Positions 7,915 to 23,007 of a DNA stretch of 23,549 nt are shown here, piece by piece (the stretch's first letter is position 1; every line of letters starts with the position of its first letter). This DNA comes from a virus. A model generated the notes under the pieces. The model did not search any database and was not told the DNA's origin. It worked only from the letters and a program-made list of their open reading frames with translations. The position numbers and the translations under genes are program-made. The stretch lies in the IMG/VR virus record IMGVR_UViG_3300044647_000609, positions 1-23,549 of that record; one strand, 5' to 3'.

Positions 7915-8187
7915 CTAACTGACCGCTTCGTAAGTAGCTTCAAAAATTGACTTTTCAACGAGCCACCGTTCACCTTTTACTCCAACGCAAACATAGTGTT
8001 GACAAAATTTACCTTTATAAAATTGGTTTTCCAATGTGCTTATATATGGCACTAAATCAGTTTGTATTCCATATTTAGCATCTTCCATAGCCCCAAGCGT
8101 ACCATCACAATGAACAAAACCATCTTCGTCACCTTTTTCAAATAATTTAGCCTTTACTGTGGCTGTCTTTCTGTACTCTTTAAACAT
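7915..8187 (-). CDS. PGDYG-like phage protein
   Basis: I use the ATG at 8187, which gives 90 residues; the TTG at 8196 would add three. The C-terminal half fits the PGDYG family of small phage proteins: YISTLENQFY, then HYVCVGVKGERWLV and IFEATYEAVS, corresponding to the usual TLEG, GVKGE and IFxxTYExV blocks. The PGDYG block itself is replaced by GKFCQHY, so the match is partial. Function of the family is unknown. The gene is AT-rich compared with most of the window and is bracketed by the direct repeats at 7870 and 8216, which may mean it came in as a unit with its own promoter. Confidence 0.6.
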   Translation of the reverse strand: MFKEYRKTATVKAKLFEKGDEDGFVHCDGTLGAMEDAKYGIQTDLVPYISTLENQFYKGKFCQHYVCVGVKGERWLVEKSIFEATYEAVS

Positions 8188-8215
8188 TGTTTTCAAATTT
8201 AATTTTTGGTTAGGT

Positions 8216-8233
8216 TATAGGCAGACGATTTGT
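8216..8233. repeat. Third copy of the TATAGG repeat
   Basis: The sequence TATAGGCAGACGATTTGT matches the 18 bases beginning at 7870 at 17 positions. It lies 29 bases upstream of the PGDYG-like gene start (8187), while the copy at 7870 lies 34 bases past its stop. An 18-base near-identity in two intergenic sites is unlikely by chance. A shared regulator site or the footprint of a gene insertion would both explain it. Confidence 0.6.
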
Positions 8234-8281
8234 AGGCTCCTTGTCAGGTTTAAACTGACTAAAGCGGTATGATTCATCATT

Positions 8282-8346
8282 CATTATACCCGATAATGGT
8301 GCTTATTGACCGATTTCTCATTCATTGTATGCTTTTGCGTAAAGCA
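8282..8346. promoter_or_regulatory. Two small perfect hairpins in the longest gap
   Basis: The 195-base gap 8188-8382 holds two perfect inverted repeats with five-base loops: CATTAT/ATAATG at 8282-8298 and TGCTTT/AAAGCA at 8330-8346. Around them the word CATTCATT is repeated (near 8278 and 8318). Neither hairpin has a T-tract on either strand, so they are not ordinary terminators. They may be operator half-sites for the leftward promoter suggested just upstream. Evidence is only the symmetry and the location. Confidence 0.3.
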
Positions 8347-8354
8347 CAAATATA
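8347..8354 (-). promoter_or_regulatory. Possible Bacteroidota -7 element
   Basis: Read on the minus strand this is TATATTTG, a full match to TAnnTTTG. I could not find a TTTG at the expected 19-base spacing upstream, so only half the promoter is supported. It sits about 160 bases before the PGDYG-like gene, directly before the small hairpins and downstream of the PD-(D/E)XK gene. Confidence 0.3.
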
Positions 8355-8382
8355 CACACTTATTCAACGAATATAATCTCTG

Positions 8383-8880
8383 CTAATTTTTTAACTTATC
8401 TAAATCTTTGACTTGAAGGTTCCAGCAATCGCCCTTAAAAACCCACCCATTTATATCGGTGCTTCCTTTTGTATTGAATTTAGCGTTTTTGAAAAAGTCC
8501 TCTTTTGATTTATAGCCCAACAAAAACCCGATTTGCATATCCTTTAGCACCCTAACAAAAAAATAGAAGTCGCATTCTTGATTTATATTATGGTTTGAAA
8601 TACTGCACAAAAAATGCGGTTCAGGATAAACGGTTGTTTTTTTGGTTTTTATATCAACTTTAAAATCACTAATAATTAAGTCGTAATGATATATATCCTC
8701 TCCTATAATTTTATTATTTATATCCAAACCCTTGTTTTTGTAATAATCATAAACAATTATTTCTCCAATCGCTCCGTAAATGTTGCTTTTCCCTTCTGTG
8801 ATTGAGTTGTTCAAAACGTTAAATTCGTACAACTCCTTGGCTCTTGCCCTTTGTTCGTTTGAAATTTGTATGATTATCAT
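8383..8880 (-). CDS. PD-(D/E)XK-type nuclease-like protein
   Basis: The 165-residue protein has a plausible restriction-endonuclease-like core: E40 in YGAIGEIIVYDYY, D67 in YHYDLIISD, and D76-I-K78 in FKVDIKTKKT, matching the E...D...(D/E)xK pattern. The following segment FLCSISNHNI and DFYFFVRVLK fit the later strands. It might act as a structure-specific nuclease, a Holliday-junction-type enzyme, or a restriction-like or homing nuclease. Base composition is much more AT-rich than the helicase gene upstream. Despite that, its start forms an ATGA overlap with the VRR-NUC gene, so it is well integrated into the operon. No close family is recognised. Confidence 0.6.
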   Translation of the reverse strand: MIIIQISNEQRARAKELYEFNVLNNSITEGKSNIYGAIGEIIVYDYYKNKGLDINNKIIGEDIYHYDLIISDFKVDIKTKKTTVYPEPHFLCSISNHNINQECDFYFFVRVLKDMQIGFLLGYKSKEDFFKNAKFNTKGSTDINGWVFKGDCWNLQVKDLDKLKN

Positions 8881-9203
8881 AGTTGAGTAATTATTCTTTG
8901 AAAATCCTCAACGCTCCTGATTACCTCGTATCGATACCCTGCCTCTTGAACCACTCCCTGCCACCACTTCTGCGAGAGCGACTGCTTGCCCTTATTGGCT
9001 TTGAACTCAAGGAAGATTGCCCCGTTGTCGGATAGGTAGGTCATGTCTGCAACCCCAGCGGTCAGGCCGATGCCCTTGAGAAAATGACCGTTGGTTCGGC
9101 TTCGAGGGTTGTTGAGGTTCAGGAACAACCGCCCTTCTTCGTGGGGCTTCAAGAGTTTGAACAACTTGACGCAGGCGGCTTGCAGGGTGTATTCGGGGGT
9201 CAT
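8877..9203 (-). CDS. VRR-NUC domain nuclease
   Basis: Starting at the ATG at 9203 gives 108 residues, the normal size for stand-alone phage VRR-NUC proteins. The catalytic pattern is clear: D53 in AGVADMTYL, E66-x-K68 in GAIFLEFKANKGKQS, a conserved Q in LSQKWWQ and a closing YEVIRSVEDF. These are PD-(D/E)XK nucleases thought to work in phage DNA processing or recombination. The start overlaps the helicase stop as ATGA, and the stop overlaps the next nuclease start the same way. The longer frame to 9242 shadows the helicase. Confidence 0.88.
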   Translation of the reverse strand: MTPEYTLQAACVKLFKLLKPHEEGRLFLNLNNPRSRTNGHFLKGIGLTAGVADMTYLSDNGAIFLEFKANKGKQSLSQKWWQGVVQEAGYRYEVIRSVEDFQRIITQL

Positions 9204-10468
9204 AGCGGATATTCGTTTGCTTTGGTGTATGGCAGTTGGCATTGGACTTGGGCGATTCCAAGGCTACCGTTCCTGTTCTTTCGGAAGATGACCTCCATCA
9301 GGTCCTGCTCTGCGTTCTTGTCGTGTTCGTAGGGTCGATAAACGAAGGCAATTTTATCAGCATCGAACTCCAGTTGCCCTGTTTCCCGAAGGTCGGACAT
9401 AATGGGCCGATGGTCGGCCCTGCCTTCCGTTGCTCTTGAGAGCGAAGAAACCACGACCCCAAAGACCTTTTGGCGTTTGCAGATTGCCTTGAGTTGCTTG
9501 CTGATATTGGTCATCTGCTCAATCTTGGGCTTGGGCTTATCAATCTTCGCAGGTTCTACGAGTTGCAGGTAGTCAAGGTAGAAACCAACGATTCCGAATT
9601 TGGCCTTGAGTTTTGCTATCTCGCCTTCGATTCGGTCAAGGTTTGCTTGGTGCAGGTCAACGATGTAGAGAGGCTTCCCTTTGAGTTGGTCGGCCTTTTG
9701 GGCCAAGGTCAGGTACTGCTCGGTGCTGATTCGCTCGTCGGGCTTGAGGAATGCAGAGCCGTCCATCGTTCCGAGGTTGGAAAGCATCCGCTGGGTCAGT
9801 TGGTCAGCAGACATCTCCATCGTAAAGAACACGACGGGAATCTCGGCCATTGCTTGGTTCATAGCTATTTGCAGAGCAAGTAGGGTCTTACCCATTGCGG
9901 GACGACCACCCACGAGGATGAACTCGGAGGGCTTAAACCCGGTGCAGATGTTGTCGAGCGGTCGGATTAAGGTCGGGTAGATTTGGTCCTTGCGTCTGCC
10001 TTCCCGGACCTCGTTCATGTTGACAAGAAAGTCCTTTGCCAGTTCATGGGCCGATGATTCGGACGCACTTGACTCAACCGCTTGAATGGACTGATAGCGT
10101 TGGAATGCCTTGGGTATGTCCCGGTCATGGGCCAGTTCTTCCATGATTCTCGCTTCCTCACGTTCCTTCCAAAGGTCGTGAAGGTCGGATGCGTAGGTCT
10201 TCCAATTGCTGACAAGCCCTGCTTCGGGGTCAATGCCTTCGAGCAGGACATGGGCTTGACCTTGGTCTGCGAGGTGTTTGTAAACGGTAACGACATCCAC
10301 CTCTCGCTCTGCTTTGTGGAGCGACTCGATGGCCCGGTAGAGCAGTACGTTGTTGCCTGTGAACAGGCGTTCCGGGATTTGGGTCAGGAGGATAGTTCGG
10401 TTTACGAACTTGTCCATTAGGCATCCGAGCAGTTTTCGCTCAGCGGACAATTGGTAGGGGTTCATCAT
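9200..10468 (-). CDS. dnaB: DnaB-family replicative helicase
   Basis: The 422-residue product has an N-terminal helical domain (residues 1-110, beginning SAERKLLGCLMDK) and a RecA-like motor. Motifs seen are GRPAMGKT (188-195, Walker A), FFTMEMSADQL (H1a), IVGFYLDYLQLV (293-304, H2), VVVSSLSRATEGR (338-350, H3), LRETGQLEFDADKI (360-373) and VIFRKNRNG (393-401, H4). It would form a ring and unwind the phage fork. No primase domain is fused. The start at a double ATG lies 29 bases inside the end of the initiator-like gene, and the VRR-NUC gene follows by ATGA overlap, so initiator, helicase and nucleases are one unit. Confidence 0.95.
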   Translation of the reverse strand: MMNPYQLSAERKLLGCLMDKFVNRTILLTQIPERLFTGNNVLLYRAIESLHKAEREVDVVTVYKHLADQGQAHVLLEGIDPEAGLVSNWKTYASDLHDLWKEREEARIMEELAHDRDIPKAFQRYQSIQAVESSASESSAHELAKDFLVNMNEVREGRRKDQIYPTLIRPLDNICTGFKPSEFILVGGRPAMGKTLLALQIAMNQAMAEIPVVFFTMEMSADQLTQRMLSNLGTMDGSAFLKPDERISTEQYLTLAQKADQLKGKPLYIVDLHQANLDRIEGEIAKLKAKFGIVGFYLDYLQLVEPAKIDKPKPKIEQMTNISKQLKAICKRQKVFGVVVSSLSRATEGRADHRPIMSDLRETGQLEFDADKIAFVYRPYEHDKNAEQDLMEVIFRKNRNGSLGIAQVQCQLPYTKANEYPL

Positions 10469-11180
10469 CTTGGGTTAGGTTTGAGTAGGCGAAGTTAGGT
10501 GTACGTTGGATGGCTTGGTCCTCCCATCGTTTGCCGTTGAGGTAGGTGGAAGGGTGAGGAACAAACTGCACGGGTGTTTGAGAGTAGAGCCTTGCGATGT
10601 TGTTCATGGCTTTCTGTTGGTCTGCATTGGACAACTTTGCAAAGGATTTTGACGCTGCCTGCTTCCCGGTCTTCCGTGGATAGATAGCCCAAAATTGGTC
10701 AAAGATTGCACAAGTGTTCTTAATCTCTTCTTTGTTTGTTATCTCTTCTATTCTTATCTTATCTAATCTTATCTTATCTGCTTCCATTTGCTTAGCACTT
10801 GCTTGGTTTTGCTTAGCACTTGCTTCAGTTTGCTTAGCACTTGCTTCGGTTTGCTTAGCACTTGCTTGGCTCTTTATTTCACCTCCTTTACGACCTGCCT
10901 CCCTCCTTCTTTCGCTTAACCTGTTAAGGCCCTCCATCTGCAAATCAAGGAAGTCGATGCGGATTTCATCGCCTTCGGTCTTAATTATTTCGGACTCAAT
11001 CAGTTTTTGAAGGAGGTCTTTGCCTATCTCAAGGCTTGCTTGATGGGCCGTAAACTGCCCGTGCTTGACCCAGTAGAGTTGACAAATGTGGATGAAGGCC
11101 CCTTGGACTTCAAAGGATTTGCGACTGATTCGGCCTGCGAGCCAATCGCTTGGGGAGTGTTTGTACCAACTATTTTCCAT
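10440..11180 (-). CDS. Replication initiator-like protein with embedded repeats
   Basis: The N-terminal 90 residues (SWYKHSPSDWLAGRI, then VQGAFIHICQLYW and a wing-like IIKTEGDEIRIDF) resemble the winged helix start of phage replication proteins of the DUF1376/Lin1244 type. Residues 104-133 contain four near-identical heptads of the form ASAKQTE. After a charged segment (DKIRLDKIRIEE) the C-terminus has FDQFWAIYPRKTGKQAASKSF and HPSTYLNGKRWED, a block found at the end of many O- or DnaD-like phage proteins. It likely binds the origin and recruits the helicase encoded next to it. The gene starts three bases after a terminator-like T-tract, and the heptad-coding DNA may itself be the origin. 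Confidence 0.8.
   Translation of the reverse strand: MENSWYKHSPSDWLAGRISRKSFEVQGAFIHICQLYWVKHGQFTAHQASLEIGKDLLQKLIESEIIKTEGDEIRIDFLDLQMEGLNRLSERRREAGRKGGEIKSQASAKQTEASAKQTEASAKQNQASAKQMEADKIRLDKIRIEEITNKEEIKNTCAIFDQFWAIYPRKTGKQAASKSFAKLSNADQQKAMNNIARLYSQTPVQFVPHPSTYLNGKRWEDQAIQRTPNFAYSNLTQDDEPLPIVR
10720..10780. other. AT-rich pyrimidine-biased tract, candidate unwinding element
   Basis: On the plus strand this stretch is nearly all T, C and A with very few G, and the word TTATCT occurs five times. It adjoins the four 18-base repeats at 10787-10867. The lambda origin has the same pairing of iterons with an AT-rich, strand-asymmetric element within the initiator gene. Here the tract encodes the charged DKIRLDKIRIEEITNKEE part of the protein. 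It is proposed as the duplex-unwinding element; this is inference from layout. Confidence 0.5.
10787..10867. repeat. Four 18-bp direct repeats (iterons), candidate origin
   Basis: The word TTTGCTTAGCACTTGCTT occurs exactly at 10787, 10808, 10829 and 10850, a strict 21-base period with a variable triplet between copies (GGT, CAG, CGG). Each copy contains GCT-T-AGC symmetry. The repeats lie inside the initiator gene and encode the heptads. All synonymous positions are the same in every copy while the spacer triplets change residues, so the DNA sequence rather than the protein seems constrained, or the array is young. Two turns of helix per unit would align bound initiators on one face. Confidence 0.8.
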
Positions 11181-11183
11181 GGT

Positions 11184-11221
11184 AAAAAAAAAGCCCCCAA
11201 CTGATTCCGGCAGTTGAGGGC
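11184..11221 (-). terminator. Rho-independent terminator or attenuator before the initiator gene
   Basis: In the leftward transcript GCCCTCAACTG and CAGTTGGGGGC (11193-11221) can pair over 11 positions with one mismatch that could be a G-U pair, around a seven-base loop, followed at once by nine T residues (11184-11192). It is a strong intrinsic terminator for transcripts from the recombination operon. The T-tract ends three bases before the ATG of the initiator gene, leaving no room for a separate promoter after it, so a role as attenuator is plausible. Confidence 0.8.
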
Positions 11222-11280
11222 AGGGTTAAGTGGAGGAACCCTTTTGTCTAACACCTGCTTGGCCGGAATTACAAGCGGAT

Positions 11281-11298
11281 GCGTTTAATTGTAAATGT
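11281..11298. repeat. 18-bp intergenic repeat, copy A
   Basis: GCGTTTAATTGTAAATGT is found exactly here and at 17615-17632, both times between minus-strand genes. In the transcription direction it reads ACATTTACAATTAAACGC. Here it is about 100 bases upstream of the initiator gene, between the SSB-like gene and the terminator hairpin. A ten-base core, ACATTTACAA, is also found just before the gene starting at 21823. A shared promoter or leader element is the likeliest reading. Confidence 0.65.
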
Positions 11299-11308
11299 AG
11301 TATGCCTG

Positions 11309-11316
11309 CAAATTTA
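11309..11316 (-). promoter_or_regulatory. Possible Bacteroidota -7 element
   Basis: On the minus strand this reads TAAATTTG, matching TAnnTTTG. It is placed just after the SSB-like gene stop and would start a transcript through the 18-base repeat and the terminator hairpin into the initiator gene. No TTTG was seen at the -33 position, so the call is weak. Confidence 0.3.
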
Positions 11317-11318
11317 CA

Positions 11319-11552
11319 CTAAAAAGGCAGGTCCGAGCCTTGTTTTTGTGAATTTTCTTGCTCTTGCATAGGCTCCATTTTGCCTGACAGGAACTTCTTG
11401 CCGTTGGCTGCTTCTTTGAGCCAGCAGGAAAGTTTCATCTTGGTTCCGTCAGGAAGGACCGCATCGCCTCGGTAATCCGGGCGTTTCGGGTTGTCGCCTT
11501 TGTCGTTGGCGAATAAAGTGAAGGTGTTGGGTTGGGGAGTGTAACTGCTCAT
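11319..11552 (-). CDS. Small SSB-like single-strand DNA-binding protein
   Basis: The 77-residue protein opens with FTLFANDKGDNPKRPDYRG, followed by strand-forming segments AVLPDGTKMKLSCWLKEA and GKKFLSGKMEP, then a polar Q/E/S-rich tail ending in SDLPF. The first part is a small all-beta domain I have seen in phage and plasmid proteins of unknown role, sometimes near replication genes. The last residues mimic the acidic-proline-phenylalanine tip of bacterial SSB, which binds partner proteins. Placed at the end of the annealing-protein operon and before the initiator and helicase, it probably coats single strands at forks or recombination ends. The start overlaps the winged helix gene as ATGA. 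Confidence 0.6.
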   Translation of the reverse strand: MSSYTPQPNTFTLFANDKGDNPKRPDYRGDAVLPDGTKMKLSCWLKEAANGKKFLSGKMEPMQEQENSQKQGSDLPF

Positions 11553-11752: not shown

Positions 11753-12198
11753 CGGAACGATACGGCTATGGACGCTTTGGTGGCCTTGGCGGTGCAGACT
11801 GGAACCTGCTCGCCCGTGGACTCGTCAAAGATAGCGGTCTTCCCGGCTTGCCGAAAGGCAATCTTCAGCAGTTCCTCCCTCGCTTTGAGTTGTGCTTTGA
11901 GGTCGGCATACACTTCGTCTTCCTCGTAGTTCGGGGTCAGGCTCCCTTCCTTCAGGGTAATCTCTGCTCCGAAGGCGGAGAAGGTCTTGCCGTGCTTGCC
12001 GGCTTCGTCGGCTACGGTCTGCTCGGTGGCCTTGATGGTTGCTTCAAGAGCCTTGACGATGGCCTTGAGTTTGATATGGGCCTCCACCGGATTGACCTCA
12101 CCATCATTGATTCGGTCGGTCAGTTGCTGGGCGATTTGGGCGATTTCTGCCTTGCAGATATCAGCCTTTGGTATTGTGATGAGAGTTGGGTGAATCAT
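11749..12198 (-). CDS. Coiled-coil phage protein in the recombination operon
   Basis: The 149-residue protein is mainly helical. It has a heptad-like helix from about 17 to 70 (IAQIAQQLTDRI, LKAIVKALEATIKATEQTV), a conserved-looking turn with HGKTFSAFGAEITLKEG, a short acidic stretch NYEEDEVYADLK, and a second helix with LKAREELLKIAF. I recall proteins of this shape from many phage recombination clusters, lying near annealing proteins or exonucleases, but no biochemical role is known to me. Both ends overlap their neighbours by ATGA, so its amounts are probably tied to those of the Rad52-like protein and the SSB-like protein. Confidence 0.6.
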   Translation of the reverse strand: MIHPTLITIPKADICKAEIAQIAQQLTDRINDGEVNPVEAHIKLKAIVKALEATIKATEQTVADEAGKHGKTFSAFGAEITLKEGSLTPNYEEDEVYADLKAQLKAREELLKIAFRQAGKTAIFDESTGEQVPVCTAKATKASIAVSFR

Positions 12199-12416
12199 GG
12201 TCTGGATTTAAAAGCGTCAAAGATTTGGTTGCAATACTGCCCGTAATGGATTCCGACTGCGTTAGAGAGGTCGATGCACTCCCCTAAGGTCAGTTGGATT
12301 GGAAGGGTTTTCTCGGTCAAGGCTTTGACCAAGTCAAGGCCAATGGTCGGAAATTTTTCTTTGAACTCAAGGAGTTTCCGAAACTCTTCAGCGTTCATTT
12401 GTTCGAGTAGGTTCAT
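12195..12416 (-). CDS. Small protein, tandem paralogue B
   Basis: Starting at the ATG at 12416 gives 73 residues that align without gaps to the product of the gene just upstream; by eye 42 of 73 positions are identical. Shared blocks are MNLLE, EF.KLLE.KEK.P near the start, and PIQLTLG in the middle, with FKS at the end. The protein is helical and soluble, with no known domain that I recognise. Start and stop both make ATGA overlaps, so it is translated in series with its paralogue. The longer frame to 12497 reads through the paralogue and is rejected. Confidence 0.7.
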   Translation of the reverse strand: MNLLEQMNAEEFRKLLEFKEKFPTIGLDLVKALTEKTLPIQLTLGECIDLSNAVGIHYGQYCNQIFDAFKSRP

Positions 12417-12634
12417 GGTTTGGATTTGAAAGTTTGGAAGATGTCGTGGATAGAGCCTCCCCAAGGGGCATCGAGTGCCGTTGAAAGCATGACGCAATCT
12501 CCCAAGGTCAGTTGAATTGGAAAGGATTTAACGGTTAATTCTTGGATTAAATCCTCGCCAAGGGCCGGGTACTTCTCTTTGTACTCAAGGAGTTTCTTAA
12601 ACTCGTCTGCATTCATTTTTTCAAGTAGGTTCAT
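12413..12634 (-). CDS. Small protein, tandem paralogue A
   Basis: A 73-residue protein of the same length as the next gene product and clearly homologous to it. The conserved part is the N-terminal helix (MNLLEKMNADEFKKLLEYKE) and the core PIQLTLGDCVMLS; the segment LDAPWGGSIHD before the last helix differs most between the copies. That fits duplication followed by change of one surface. It may form homo- or heterodimers with paralogue B. The gene begins in an ATGA overlap with the Rad52-like gene, which suggests a role in annealing or strand handling, but the sequence itself does not show one. Confidence 0.7.
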   Translation of the reverse strand: MNLLEKMNADEFKKLLEYKEKYPALGEDLIQELTVKSFPIQLTLGDCVMLSTALDAPWGGSIHDIFQTFKSKP

Positions 12635-13559: not shown

Positions 13560-13817
13560 ATGCACGAATACCACTCCCTCCGACCTGCCAAGGCCCTGAC
13601 CAACGCCTTGGAACGGCTCATGATAGCCATTGACAATGCTGATCTTGAAGGCAACCACGCCCTCCTGCTTGAATACCGCAAGTGTTGCGAGTTACTCGGA
13701 TACGATCCTGCTATGGCTCAATGGGCGACCCACAACGAGGTCAACCTATCCAGCGGTCCCGATGTTGCCGACCCTGTTGCGGTCAACTACTTTCACAAAC
13801 TAAACCCCGAAGAATGA
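13560..13817 (+). CDS. Hypothetical protein, 85 aa
   Basis: The first rightward gene, with leader ACAAACCTAACCC before its ATG. The 85-residue product is soluble: an N-terminal segment MHEYHSLRPAKALTNALERL, a helix with LLLEYRKCCELLGYD, and a C-terminal DPVAVNYFHKLNPEE. No family is recognised. Its stop overlaps the start of the amidase gene as ATGA, so the two proteins are made together. A lysis accessory role is therefore a possibility, but there is no signal peptide or membrane segment to support one. Confidence 0.65.
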   Translation: MHEYHSLRPAKALTNALERLMIAIDNADLEGNHALLLEYRKCCELLGYDPAMAQWATHNEVNLSSGPDVADPVAVNYFHKLNPEE

Positions 13818-14266
13818 GAACCATCACCCACCTCGTCGTCCATTGCACGGCCACCCCGAAGAACACGACCATCGCATCCATCCGCAAGCATTGGAAGGAG
13901 GCCCTTGGATGGAAGTCGGTGGGGTATCACAAGATTATAGACTCAACCGGGAACGTAACGGTCTTGGCTCCTGATAGTGCCATCACCAACGGAGTGCAGG
14001 GACACAACGCTACGAGCCTTCACGTGAGTTATATCGGAGGCAAAGACAAAGACGACCGAACTATCGGCCAGCGTCAAGCGATTGCCGTGGTGCTGCTGGA
14101 TTGGCTTAAGAAGTACCCTACCGCAAGGATATGCGGACACAGGGACTTCCCCGGTGTTACCAAGGCCTGCCCCCAGTTTAATGCAGAGAAAGAGTACGGC
14201 TACCTATACCTGACCGCTGCCGGTGTAGAACCTGTCGCAGGGGGAGAAGGAAGCAAAGACCTGTAA
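13814..14266 (+). CDS. N-acetylmuramoyl-L-alanine amidase (endolysin)
   Basis: From the ATG at 13814 the enzyme has 150 residues, about the size of T7 lysozyme. Zinc ligands are H10 in LVVHCTAT, H109 in ICGHRDFPG and C119 in TKACPQFN; K117 sits two before the cysteine as in T7 lysozyme, and GYHKIID and GHNATSLHVSYIGG are the other family blocks. It cuts the bond between MurNAc and L-alanine in peptidoglycan. There is no signal peptide, so release would depend on the holin coded on the other strand. The last 63 bases overlap antisense to the end of the metallophosphoesterase gene. The extended frame to 13682 shadows the upstream gene. Confidence 0.92.
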   Translation: MRTITHLVVHCTATPKNTTIASIRKHWKEALGWKSVGYHKIIDSTGNVTVLAPDSAITNGVQGHNATSLHVSYIGGKDKDDRTIGQRQAIAVVLLDWLKKYPTARICGHRDFPGVTKACPQFNAEKEYGYLYLTAAGVEPVAGGEGSKDL

Positions 14267-17333: not shown

Positions 17334-17608
17334 TAGAGGAAGGTATAACCGATGACCGAACCTGCGCTTGGAGTAACGGCCGTAATCTTACCGCCATTGC
17401 GTCCTGAAATCACGATGCCTGCGGAAACGGATTTGCCACTCAAAGCGTAAGCGGTTAGTAGGTTCTCGCTTCCAGTTCCAGTAAGGGTTGTAAAAGTCGC
17501 AGCGGTGTTGACTACCAAGAAGTCATAGTTTTTGCCACTCACGGCAGCATCGACAAACTCCATCGTACCGCCCTGACCGAGCATTTGTTGCAATATGGGT
17601 GTAGGCAT
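17333..17608 (-). CDS. Small beta-rich virion-type protein, 91 aa
   Basis: The protein starts MPTPILQQMLGQGGTMEFVD and continues with alternating strands (YDFLVVNTAATFTTLTG, AGIVISGRNGGKITAV), ending GSVIGYTFL. It looks like a small trimeric fibre or decoration domain, but no specific family is recognised. The 18-base repeat copy B and an A-rich leader come just before it, so it may begin its own transcript unit. The opening residues MPTP are shared with the fibre gene product two genes downstream, which may be a coincidence of short N-termini. Confidence 0.6.
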   Translation of the reverse strand: MPTPILQQMLGQGGTMEFVDAAVSGKNYDFLVVNTAATFTTLTGTGSENLLTAYALSGKSVSAGIVISGRNGGKITAVTPSAGSVIGYTFL

Positions 17609-17614
17609 TTTTTA

Positions 17615-17632
17615 GCGTTTAATTGTAAATGT
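17615..17632. repeat. 18-bp intergenic repeat, copy B
   Basis: Exact second copy of GCGTTTAATTGTAAATGT, here only seven bases upstream of the start at 17608. On the transcribed strand it reads ACATTTACAATTAAACGC followed by TAAAAA and the ATG. The close spacing to the start suggests that it is within the leader or is the promoter of a short leader message. Confidence 0.65.
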
Positions 17633-21853: not shown

Positions 21854-22930
21854 TCACAATTTGCGCCCAATCTGCCTGTATAGTTCGGCCCGTTTCTTCG
21901 CAGTTTCGGCCACATTAAACCGCTTCTTGATGTCGGCTGTGAGGTTGTCGGCCAAACCTTTGCGCAGGTCGGGGTCAAGAATCAACTGCTTAATGTACTT
22001 GTACCAGTCCTTGGGCTTGTTGTAAGGCACGAGAAACCCGTTCTCTCCGTGTTTGATTACGTCCGTGTAAGGGATGGTTTCGCTTGCAATGATGGCCTTA
22101 TTCATCCACCCGGCCTCAACGACCTTCAACTCGGACTTGAGTTTGTTAAACTTGGTGTCCCGAAGCGGTGCAAGGGTAACGTTCACAAAGTTGTAGCCAC
22201 CGACGTAGGAGTAGATGTCCGCTGCTTGGATTCGTCCGTAGTTCGGGTTGTTGCCTTGGTCGCTGATGATCTTCTCGTAGCCTTCATAGACAGGATTATT
22301 ATCGTTCCACCCTCCGAGGTAGAGCCTGTACTTGCCGTCCAAGTTTGCATCCCAGCGTAACTTCTGCATCCCCTCTCGGAGTAGTTCCATGTCCTCTCCG
22401 TGCTGCGCACCCCCGAACCAACCGAACTTGACGAGGTGTTTATCAGGTTCTTCGTCAGGATTCGGAATAAACTGCTGATAGGCTTCGTAGGGTTCGTTTT
22501 GCAATATGCTCACATTGGCGTTTAGAGGCCGTATGCGGGCAGCAAGATGCTCGGTGGTACAAGTTACCCAATCGGCTAATTTGATGTGCTTACGGATGAC
22601 CTCTGCGAGTTTGGTCTGGTGATAGTGGCGGTACATGATGTGGCCGCTCTCAAGGACCCAATAGTCGTCCAAGTCAAGGATGACTTTCGCTCCGTATTGG
22701 GTCAGGGCCTTGTAAACGTTCTCCACTTGCTCCATCGTGCCTTGACACCACAAACGGCTGAACAGGAACAGGTCTATTGAACGAAGCCCCTCGTCGCTGA
22801 TAGTCGTGATGTTCTCAACGCAGACGTAATCAAACTCCGGGTAGTTGTCGCCAAGGTAAGCGTTCGGCATTTCGAGGCGATAGAAACTGCAACCCGTTGG
22901 GTGAGCGTTATAGACAATGCAAATCTTCAT
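21854..22930 (-). CDS. Glycosyltransferase, GT-B / family 4-like
   Basis: From the ATG at 22930 the enzyme has 358 residues. It begins MKICIVYNAHPTGCSFYRLE, a GT-B N-terminal strand and loop, has ILDLDDYWVLE in the N-terminal half, and carries the donor-site block KAIIASETIPYTDVIKHGEN with GENGFLVP at 295-302 as in GT4 enzymes, then a C-terminal helix region with FNVAETAKKRAELYRQ. It transfers a sugar from a nucleotide donor. It stands between virion genes, which suggests that a virion protein or the host surface is the target. A terminator lies directly upstream, so expression is set apart from the tail gene. The longer frame to 22975 is rejected because it crosses the terminator. Confidence 0.85.
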   Translation of the reverse strand: MKICIVYNAHPTGCSFYRLEMPNAYLGDNYPEFDYVCVENITTISDEGLRSIDLFLFSRLWCQGTMEQVENVYKALTQYGAKVILDLDDYWVLESGHIMYRHYHQTKLAEVIRKHIKLADWVTCTTEHLAARIRPLNANVSILQNEPYEAYQQFIPNPDEEPDKHLVKFGWFGGAQHGEDMELLREGMQKLRWDANLDGKYRLYLGGWNDNNPVYEGYEKIISDQGNNPNYGRIQAADIYSYVGGYNFVNVTLAPLRDTKFNKLKSELKVVEAGWMNKAIIASETIPYTDVIKHGENGFLVPYNKPKDWYKYIKQLILDPDLRKGLADNLTADIKKRFNVAETAKKRAELYRQIGRKL

Positions 22931-22936
22931 GGCCGT

Positions 22937-22970
22937 AAAAATAAGAAGGGCAGCCATTGCTGACTGCCCT
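22937..22970 (-). terminator. Rho-independent terminator after the tail tube gene
   Basis: On the minus strand AGGGCAG (22964-22970) and CTGCCCT (22947-22953) form a perfect seven-pair stem around a ten-base loop, followed by TCTTATTTTT. It ends transcripts coming from the gene at 23008-23535. The T-rich end is six bases before the glycosyltransferase start, the same tight placement as at the initiator gene. Confidence 0.7.
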
Positions 22971-23007
22971 CCCAAACCTCAGATGATGAAAACCTGATGC
23001 GAAGATA

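Follow-up and report, generated by a model that had tools for sequence, protein, structure and literature searches.

A conserved attenuator-like RNA leader with complementary loops ahead of phage replication genes

Introduction

In ColE1, the 7-nt kissing loops of RNA I and RNA II are fully paired, while the c4 immunity leader RNA of phage P1 carries complementary segments and controls premature termination. To our knowledge, control by a leader RNA has been described for few phage replication operons, apart from such P4/P1-type immunity RNAs. The attenuator of pT181 governs repC, the gene of its replication initiator. Here control involves a terminator leader and loop-loop kissing, and the 5′ portion of the stem of the terminator is sequestered by an anti-terminator (PMC4878617). 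In P4 the leader-derived CI RNA leads to premature termination ahead of the phage replication genes, and it is a processed RNA that acts in lysogeny on seqA and seqC (PMC4825925).

The locus analyzed here was the subject of a preliminary description, which saw an attenuator-like leader ahead of the gene of a replication initiator and suggested that the leader could control the supply of the initiator, either by antitermination or by hiding the start region in the RNA. Herein this leader is compared with those of related viral sequences in IMG/VR and with the systems described above.

Results

The replication locus

The window, by which we mean the entire 23,549-nucleotide stretch of viral DNA under study, is that of a tailed phage, marked by a terminase and a portal protein, and its promoter type and gene families point to a host within the Bacteroidota. 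On the minus strand an SSB-like gene (11552-11319) is followed by a gap of 138 bp, the initiator gene (11180-10440), and the gene of a DnaB helicase (10468-9200). The start of the initiator reading frame (11180-10440) is judged to be sound because the N-terminus MENSWYKHSPSDW is common to the relatives and the PHROG match begins at residue 4. The features of the locus, in the direction of transcription, are as follows.

11319-11552, minus strand: SSB-like protein with a DLPF tail, the usual neighbor upstream of the leader in relatives
11309-11316, minus strand: −7-like promoter element, TAAATTTG here and TAANTTTG in relatives of the main class, from sequence
11292-11299, minus strand: second −7-like element, TACATTTA, 17 bp on from TAAATTTG
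11281-11298, minus strand: 18-base repeat ACATTTACAATTAAACGC, with a second copy at 17615-17632
11251-11282, minus strand: leader hairpin P1, whose loop (11262-11271) contains ATTCCGG (11263-11269), from fold and covariation
11222-11242, minus strand: small hairpin P2 (AGGGTT/AACCCT) between P1 and P3, variable among relatives, from fold
11193-11221, minus strand: intrinsic terminator hairpin P3 of 11 bp with the 7-nt loop CCGGAAT (11204-11210), from fold and covariation
11184-11192, minus strand: U-tract of the terminator, nine T, from sequence
10440-11180, minus strand: initiator/primosomal replication protein (PHROG 9327, 270)
9200-10468, minus strand: DnaB-like replicative helicase, the next gene after the initiator in the same direction

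Several other regions of the window are recorded here in their own right. The middle of the initiator protein contains ASAKQTE-like units encoded by 21-bp tandem repeats (10779-10883). A tandem duplication at 12195-12630 consists of two 218-bp copies that are 71% identical, each encoding a small MNLLE(K/Q)MNA(D/E)EF-like protein of no known family. An N-acetylmuramoyl-L-alanine amidase (Amidase_2), a probable lysis gene, lies on the plus strand at 13817-14263, opposite to its neighbors, and the minus strand has glycosyltransferase matches at 511-1254 (family 2, weak) and 21854-22975 (group 1, clear). Around the gene at 8383-8880, whose function is unknown, the GC content falls locally to 31-35% (8000-9000), which suggests a recent acquisition.

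The terminator and its predicted pairing partner

Read on the minus strand, the leader ends with GCCCTCAACTG-CCGGAAT-CAGTTGGGGGC (11221-11193), T9 (11192-11184), ACC, and the ATG of the initiator. The preliminary description of a strong terminator, with a stem of 11 positions and nine T, three bases before the ATG is correct in its coordinates and particulars, as is its statement that no promoter fits between U-tract and ATG, an interval of 3 bp. With its GC-rich hairpin and the U-tract behind it on the transcribed strand, it has the form of an intrinsic terminator; termination itself is predicted. The window contains a single hairpin of this grade (a stem of 9 or more with 6 or more GC pairs, and 7 or more T), and none arose in 200 dinucleotide shuffles. 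From the end of P3 to the initiator AUG is only 12 nt, hence the hairpin could possibly hide the start region in the RNA, as had been proposed.

What the earlier description did not include are P1, P2, and the complementarity between the loops of P1 and P3. ATTCCGG in the P1 loop (11269-11263) has its exact reverse complement in the P3 loop, CCGGAAT (11210-11204), and the kissing helix predicted between them has 7 bp that could be extended by at most one C-G pair. In 49 distinct combinations the complementarity likewise reaches no more than 1 nt into the 5′ arm of P3. Folding of the leader prefix that ends at the P3 loop predicts a long-range helix instead of P1 in nine of 14 representative loop types, including GTCGCAG, ATTCCAG, ATTCCGG, and TTCCGG; the helix of the prefix stage is compatible with P3. 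For most combinations of types a mismatched loop pair is predicted to form a weaker helix, although some pairs, such as GTCGTAG with CTGCGAC (−8.5 kcal/mol), cross-pair well in the prediction.

Promoter elements and the 18-base repeat

Promoters of Bacteroidota have TAnnTTTG at −7, to which Bacteroides fragilis adds TTTG near −33 (PMC7366714). Both elements that the preliminary description had placed in the leader are there, the −7-like element as TAAATTTG (11309-11316) and the 18-base repeat as ACATTTACAATTAAACGC (11281-11298). By itself the −7-like element is not above chance in the window, with 15 found and 12.4 expected. In 142 of the 143 distinct leaders the 75 nt ahead of the P1 loop contain a perfect TANNTTTG, as in Bacteroidota −7 elements. 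In nearly all leader classes the −7-like box nearest to P1 is TACATTTA, TACATTTG, or TATATTTG, situated 25-30 nt ahead of the kissing 7-mer of P1. Only one of the 143 has an antisense TANNTTTG, which is therefore not conserved, at least as far as promoters of the −7 type are concerned.

The 18-mer is present in at least 120 viral stretches. The copy at 17615 is preceded by a stop codon and followed, six bases downstream, by the ATG of the gene at 17608, and TTTG of the −33 kind is found 18 nt before its box but is not clear at the leader. The minus-strand segment 17615-17655 is kept in many viral contigs with two common preceding sequences, TAAAAG or TAATCT, and is probably the promoter of a structural gene with a very short 5′ UTR. 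At both the leader and the gene at 17608 the 18-mer looks like a shared promoter module made up of a −7 box and a start region. The idea that the 18-mer regulates the terminator was considered and rejected, as the second copy stands alone before a structural gene without hairpins.

Related leaders

The relatives in IMG/VR keep the promoter, P1, P2, and the terminator P3 between the SSB gene, with a DLPF or DMPF tail, and the first replication gene. An initial set was retrieved by similarity of the initiator protein alone, others were added by scanning for the 18-mer and for the terminator pattern, and two further protein-anchored retrievals, which served as an unbiased test, used the primase-helicase and the DUF6291 protein found behind the leader as queries. 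The initiator-based set contains the loop pairs ATTCCGG/CCGGAAT, GTCGCAG/CTGCGAC, ATTCCAG/CTGGAAT, ATAGCAG/CTGCTAT, and GTAGAGG/CCTCTAC, and there are about 17 distinct loop pairs in all. In 143 of 143 distinct leaders, 8-11 of the 11 nt after the stem are T.

A terminator within approximately 45 nt upstream of the gene is present at 149 loci, and by an automatic rule the exact complement of its loop lies upstream in 142. Five more are complementary by inspection, with a 7-bp match involving an 8-nt loop (L406, L409) or a 6-bp match (L451-L453). The remaining two are mismatched: L407 with six of seven pairs and L415 with five of seven. The leader of L415, which is on the same contig as L223 (L223:6275-6390), combines a P1 and a P3 of two different loop types, and L407 belongs to a second leader class (L202:1903-2010, L225, L242, L263, L406), which has a P2 of its own and a TATATTTG box. 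Both mismatched leaders could be recombinants or assembly chimeras, and L407, with its single mismatched kissing pair, is possibly caught between two loop types. Of 17 loci that fail the terminator rule, L401 and L402 do have the layout, with the loop pair GTAGCAG/CTGCTAC and stems that are unrelated in sequence; in most of the others the gene is not the first after the leader or the locus is a different one.

In a blind control with other terminators, 2 of 20 had a complement, and both turned out to be additional versions of the leader, L406 and L447, the latter with the pair TGACCG/CGGTCA between an SSB gene and a ParB-like gene. In unrelated viruses, terminators with the same 3′ arm and a different first loop base had an upstream complement in 0 of 34 cases. 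Each genome record has one copy of the leader; the two matches in G007 are identical and located at the two ends of the record, and are hence taken as terminal repeats. The leader of L231 has an insertion of about 30 nt, so that the spacing of the arms varies. A different terminator, GCCCTGACCTAACCAGTCGGGGC-T7-ATG, lies directly before the ATG in many unrelated viral contigs (L298-L330, e.g., L301:8373), where it is without a kissing partner.

Covariation and evolution of the loops

The kissing helix is paired in 98.5% of the cells of an alignment of 19 distinct loop/terminator combinations, one of which is the mismatched L223, compared with 21-53% in slid-structure controls. Both sides have changed in five of its seven pairs, and in no pair is a change confined to one side. 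When P1 is added (24 distinct rows, again including L223), P1, the kissing helix, and P3 are 99.2, 98.8, and 98.3% paired, and over all three there are 84 double-changed cells versus 22 in shuffles, with the stems of P1 and P3 covarying as well; these counts refer to sequences rather than events, and they overstate the number of events because related loci are not independent. The loop pairs change almost exclusively as matched pairs and never through G-U, whereas the stems of P1 and P3 do use G-U pairs.

There are at least two clear compensatory events. L219, L221, and L235 differ from L254 at none of 80 bases outside the loops and yet have a compensated C-G to G-C swap, while L211 and L258 differ at one base outside the loops and by two compensated pairs. 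On a neighbor tree of 56 distinct leaders, in which edges with up to six changes were considered, the short edges have 95 changes, of which six are in the loops and all six are compensated. Taken together, covariation and compensated changes indicate that the P1 and P3 loops are held complementary by selection. The many loop types might lead one to expect diversifying selection, but on the tree the loops have fewer changes than average, all of them compensated. They do not outpace the remainder of the leader in evolution, so that a diversifying arms race finds no support.

Genes behind the leader

The first genes after the leader are of at least five unrelated kinds:

PHROG 9327-type proteins, which include the initiator of the window and a sister initiator (MKQISWFKF...)
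DUF6291 protein
BT4734/PriCT_2/VapE primase-helicase
ParB-like methyltransferases
DUF3223 protein

One loop type is found before several kinds of gene and one kind of gene behind several loop types. The leader would therefore serve the replication operon rather than one initiator, and it appears to behave as a separately exchanged module that is not read by any single initiator. Its description as attenuator-like is well supported, given that the terminator, the U-tract, the leader hairpin, and their position before the first replication gene are kept at some 150 anchored loci. The terminator is in a 5′ leader between a promoter, as judged by sequence, and a gene, and is conserved with that gene, which is the arrangement of an attenuator. 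The proposal that it controls the supply of the initiator is too narrow, since the leader precedes at least five kinds of first gene, and gating would be operon-wide.

Searches for known families

Neither the leader nor its relatives matched Rfam 15 at the gathering score, the best of the sub-threshold hits having an E-value of 0.03. Annotated phage records contained only distant C-termini of the initiator and no related leader. A scan of genomes by terminator pattern gave two matches in Streptomyces and one in Flavihumibacter, none with the layout of the leader, and a covariance model gave none in 395 Bacteroidota genomes, a set searched with stricter filters and containing no positive control. 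Domains of tyrosine integrases (PF00589) and serine recombinases (PF00239) were absent from the window and six related records of 31-44 kb, which are possibly incomplete. The titles and abstracts that literature searches yielded describe nothing that resembles the leader. That it represents a genuine, apparently undescribed switch on phage DNA replication is almost certain, given that related phages retain the loop match while its letters change.

Discussion

We propose that the leader is a cis-acting RNA attenuator that gates the phage replication operon, in which the P1-P3 kiss coexists with the terminator, and we give this reading a probability of roughly 0.62. The transcript would begin near 11303-11287, giving a leader of about 100-120 nt in which P1 forms and then P3, where RNA polymerase would usually stop. 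The kiss would form together with P3 and tune the passage of the polymerase, and kiss and P3 might also tune the access of ribosomes to a start codon that is 12 nt past the hairpin and crowded by the terminator. With a stop at P3 and passage tuned by the kiss, the replication genes would stay low until readthrough is allowed. Because the complementarity ends at the edge of the loop, the kiss can coexist with the terminator, and we lean toward kiss plus terminator as a state that is OFF by default. The same property argues against a classical antiterminator, and the suggestion that control is by antitermination has thus not been borne out, the conserved pairing being confined to loops. P2 and the linkers vary, so that no conserved ligand pocket is visible.

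The extent of the pairing also bears on kinetic antitermination, in which the P1 loop would grab the emerging P3 loop and delay the folding of P3, so that readthrough is the default and a factor that masks P1 would bring about termination. The long-range helix as the predicted fold of the prefix in nine of 14 types makes this a serious rival, but the complementarity extends at most one base into the 5′ arm of P3, while the classical antiterminator of pT181 sequesters a stem arm (PMC4878617), and on balance we regard it as unlikely, if the most plausible of the alternatives. Control could instead be exerted in trans, as with P4 CI RNA or the incompatibility RNAs of plasmids: terminated leader RNA would kiss the nascent leaders of genomes that share its loop code, be they sister genomes or co-infecting ones, and so limit replication. 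The many loop pairs, the predicted weakness of most mismatched combinations, the position before replication genes, and a promoter element and terminator within one leader, from which a discrete small RNA is expected, are what one would look for in such a system. Nevertheless, pairing in cis should outcompete pairing in trans, some types are predicted to cross-pair well (GTCGTAG with CTGCGAC, −8.5 kcal/mol), loops evolve no faster than the rest (6/95 changes), there is one copy per genome, the seven records have no tyrosine integrase or serine recombinase, and the antisense −7 element is not conserved (1/143), which together leave this reading improbable. A little more doubtful still is the combination in which the leader is both operon gate and source of a trans-acting, loop-coded small RNA that limits co-infecting phages of the same code, with no obvious lysogenic stage; if true, it would be an RNA incompatibility system in phages.

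Two readings dispense with a regulatory RNA fold, and we consider both very improbable. The loops could be an inverted repeat in DNA that is bound by the initiator or acts as an origin, the RNA fold being incidental, and indeed the repeats are perfectly Watson-Crick without G-U and adjoin the initiator gene. Yet the stems of P1 and P3 use G-U pairs and covary, the transcribed strand is the one that carries the U-tract and promoter element, the arm spacing varies (the insertion of about 30 nt in L231), and the same repeat occurs before unrelated first genes and the same initiator behind different repeats, so that the G-U pairs of the stems and the swapping of modules disfavor a DNA-bound repeat. 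The least likely explanation of all is that P3 is an ordinary end-of-operon terminator of the SSB transcript that stands before the initiator by chance. P3 does come after the SSB gene, but the few bases that separate it from the next start codon could not accommodate a promoter, the stretch from the SSB gene to P1 contains a promoter-like element, and P1 and the loop match are conserved.

If the leader is the cis-acting gate that we favor, it represents a conserved control element behind which one replication gene has been exchanged for another. A terminator loop that is strictly selected to pair upstream also provides natural matched variants for studying the effects of loop contacts on termination, and the leader is an entry point to the study of gene regulation in uncultured phages, whose hosts are probably Bacteroidota.

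Comparison with known systems

Like riboswitch-type leaders, the phage leader is structured and ends in an intrinsic terminator, but it is without an Rfam match, and its variable linkers and P2 leave no conserved ligand pocket visible. With ColE1 it shares 7-nt loops that are fully paired with each other, although in ColE1 these are on sense and antisense RNAs and here on one transcript, with a terminator as one of the partners. Complementary segments in one leader before phage replication genes are found here as in P4 CI and P1 c4. The differences are that the pairing partner in the phage leader is the loop of an intrinsic terminator, unlike in P4 CI, and that the lysogeny functions of both systems were not found, neither PF00589 nor PF00239 being detected in the seven, possibly incomplete, records. 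As in pT181, a leader with an intrinsic terminator precedes a replication initiator gene and loop-loop kissing is involved, in the phage leader as predicted from sequence; in contrast, pT181 uses an antisense RNA and sequesters an arm of the terminator stem, whereas the phage leader has both complementary loops on one RNA and pairs the terminator loop only. An antisense attenuator of the pT181 type was rejected on the basis of the antisense −7 element (1/143) and of an extension into the 5′ arm that, over 49 combinations, never exceeds 1 nt. By analogy, the systems closest in function would be the leader attenuators of replication genes, of the pT181 type and P4 CI.
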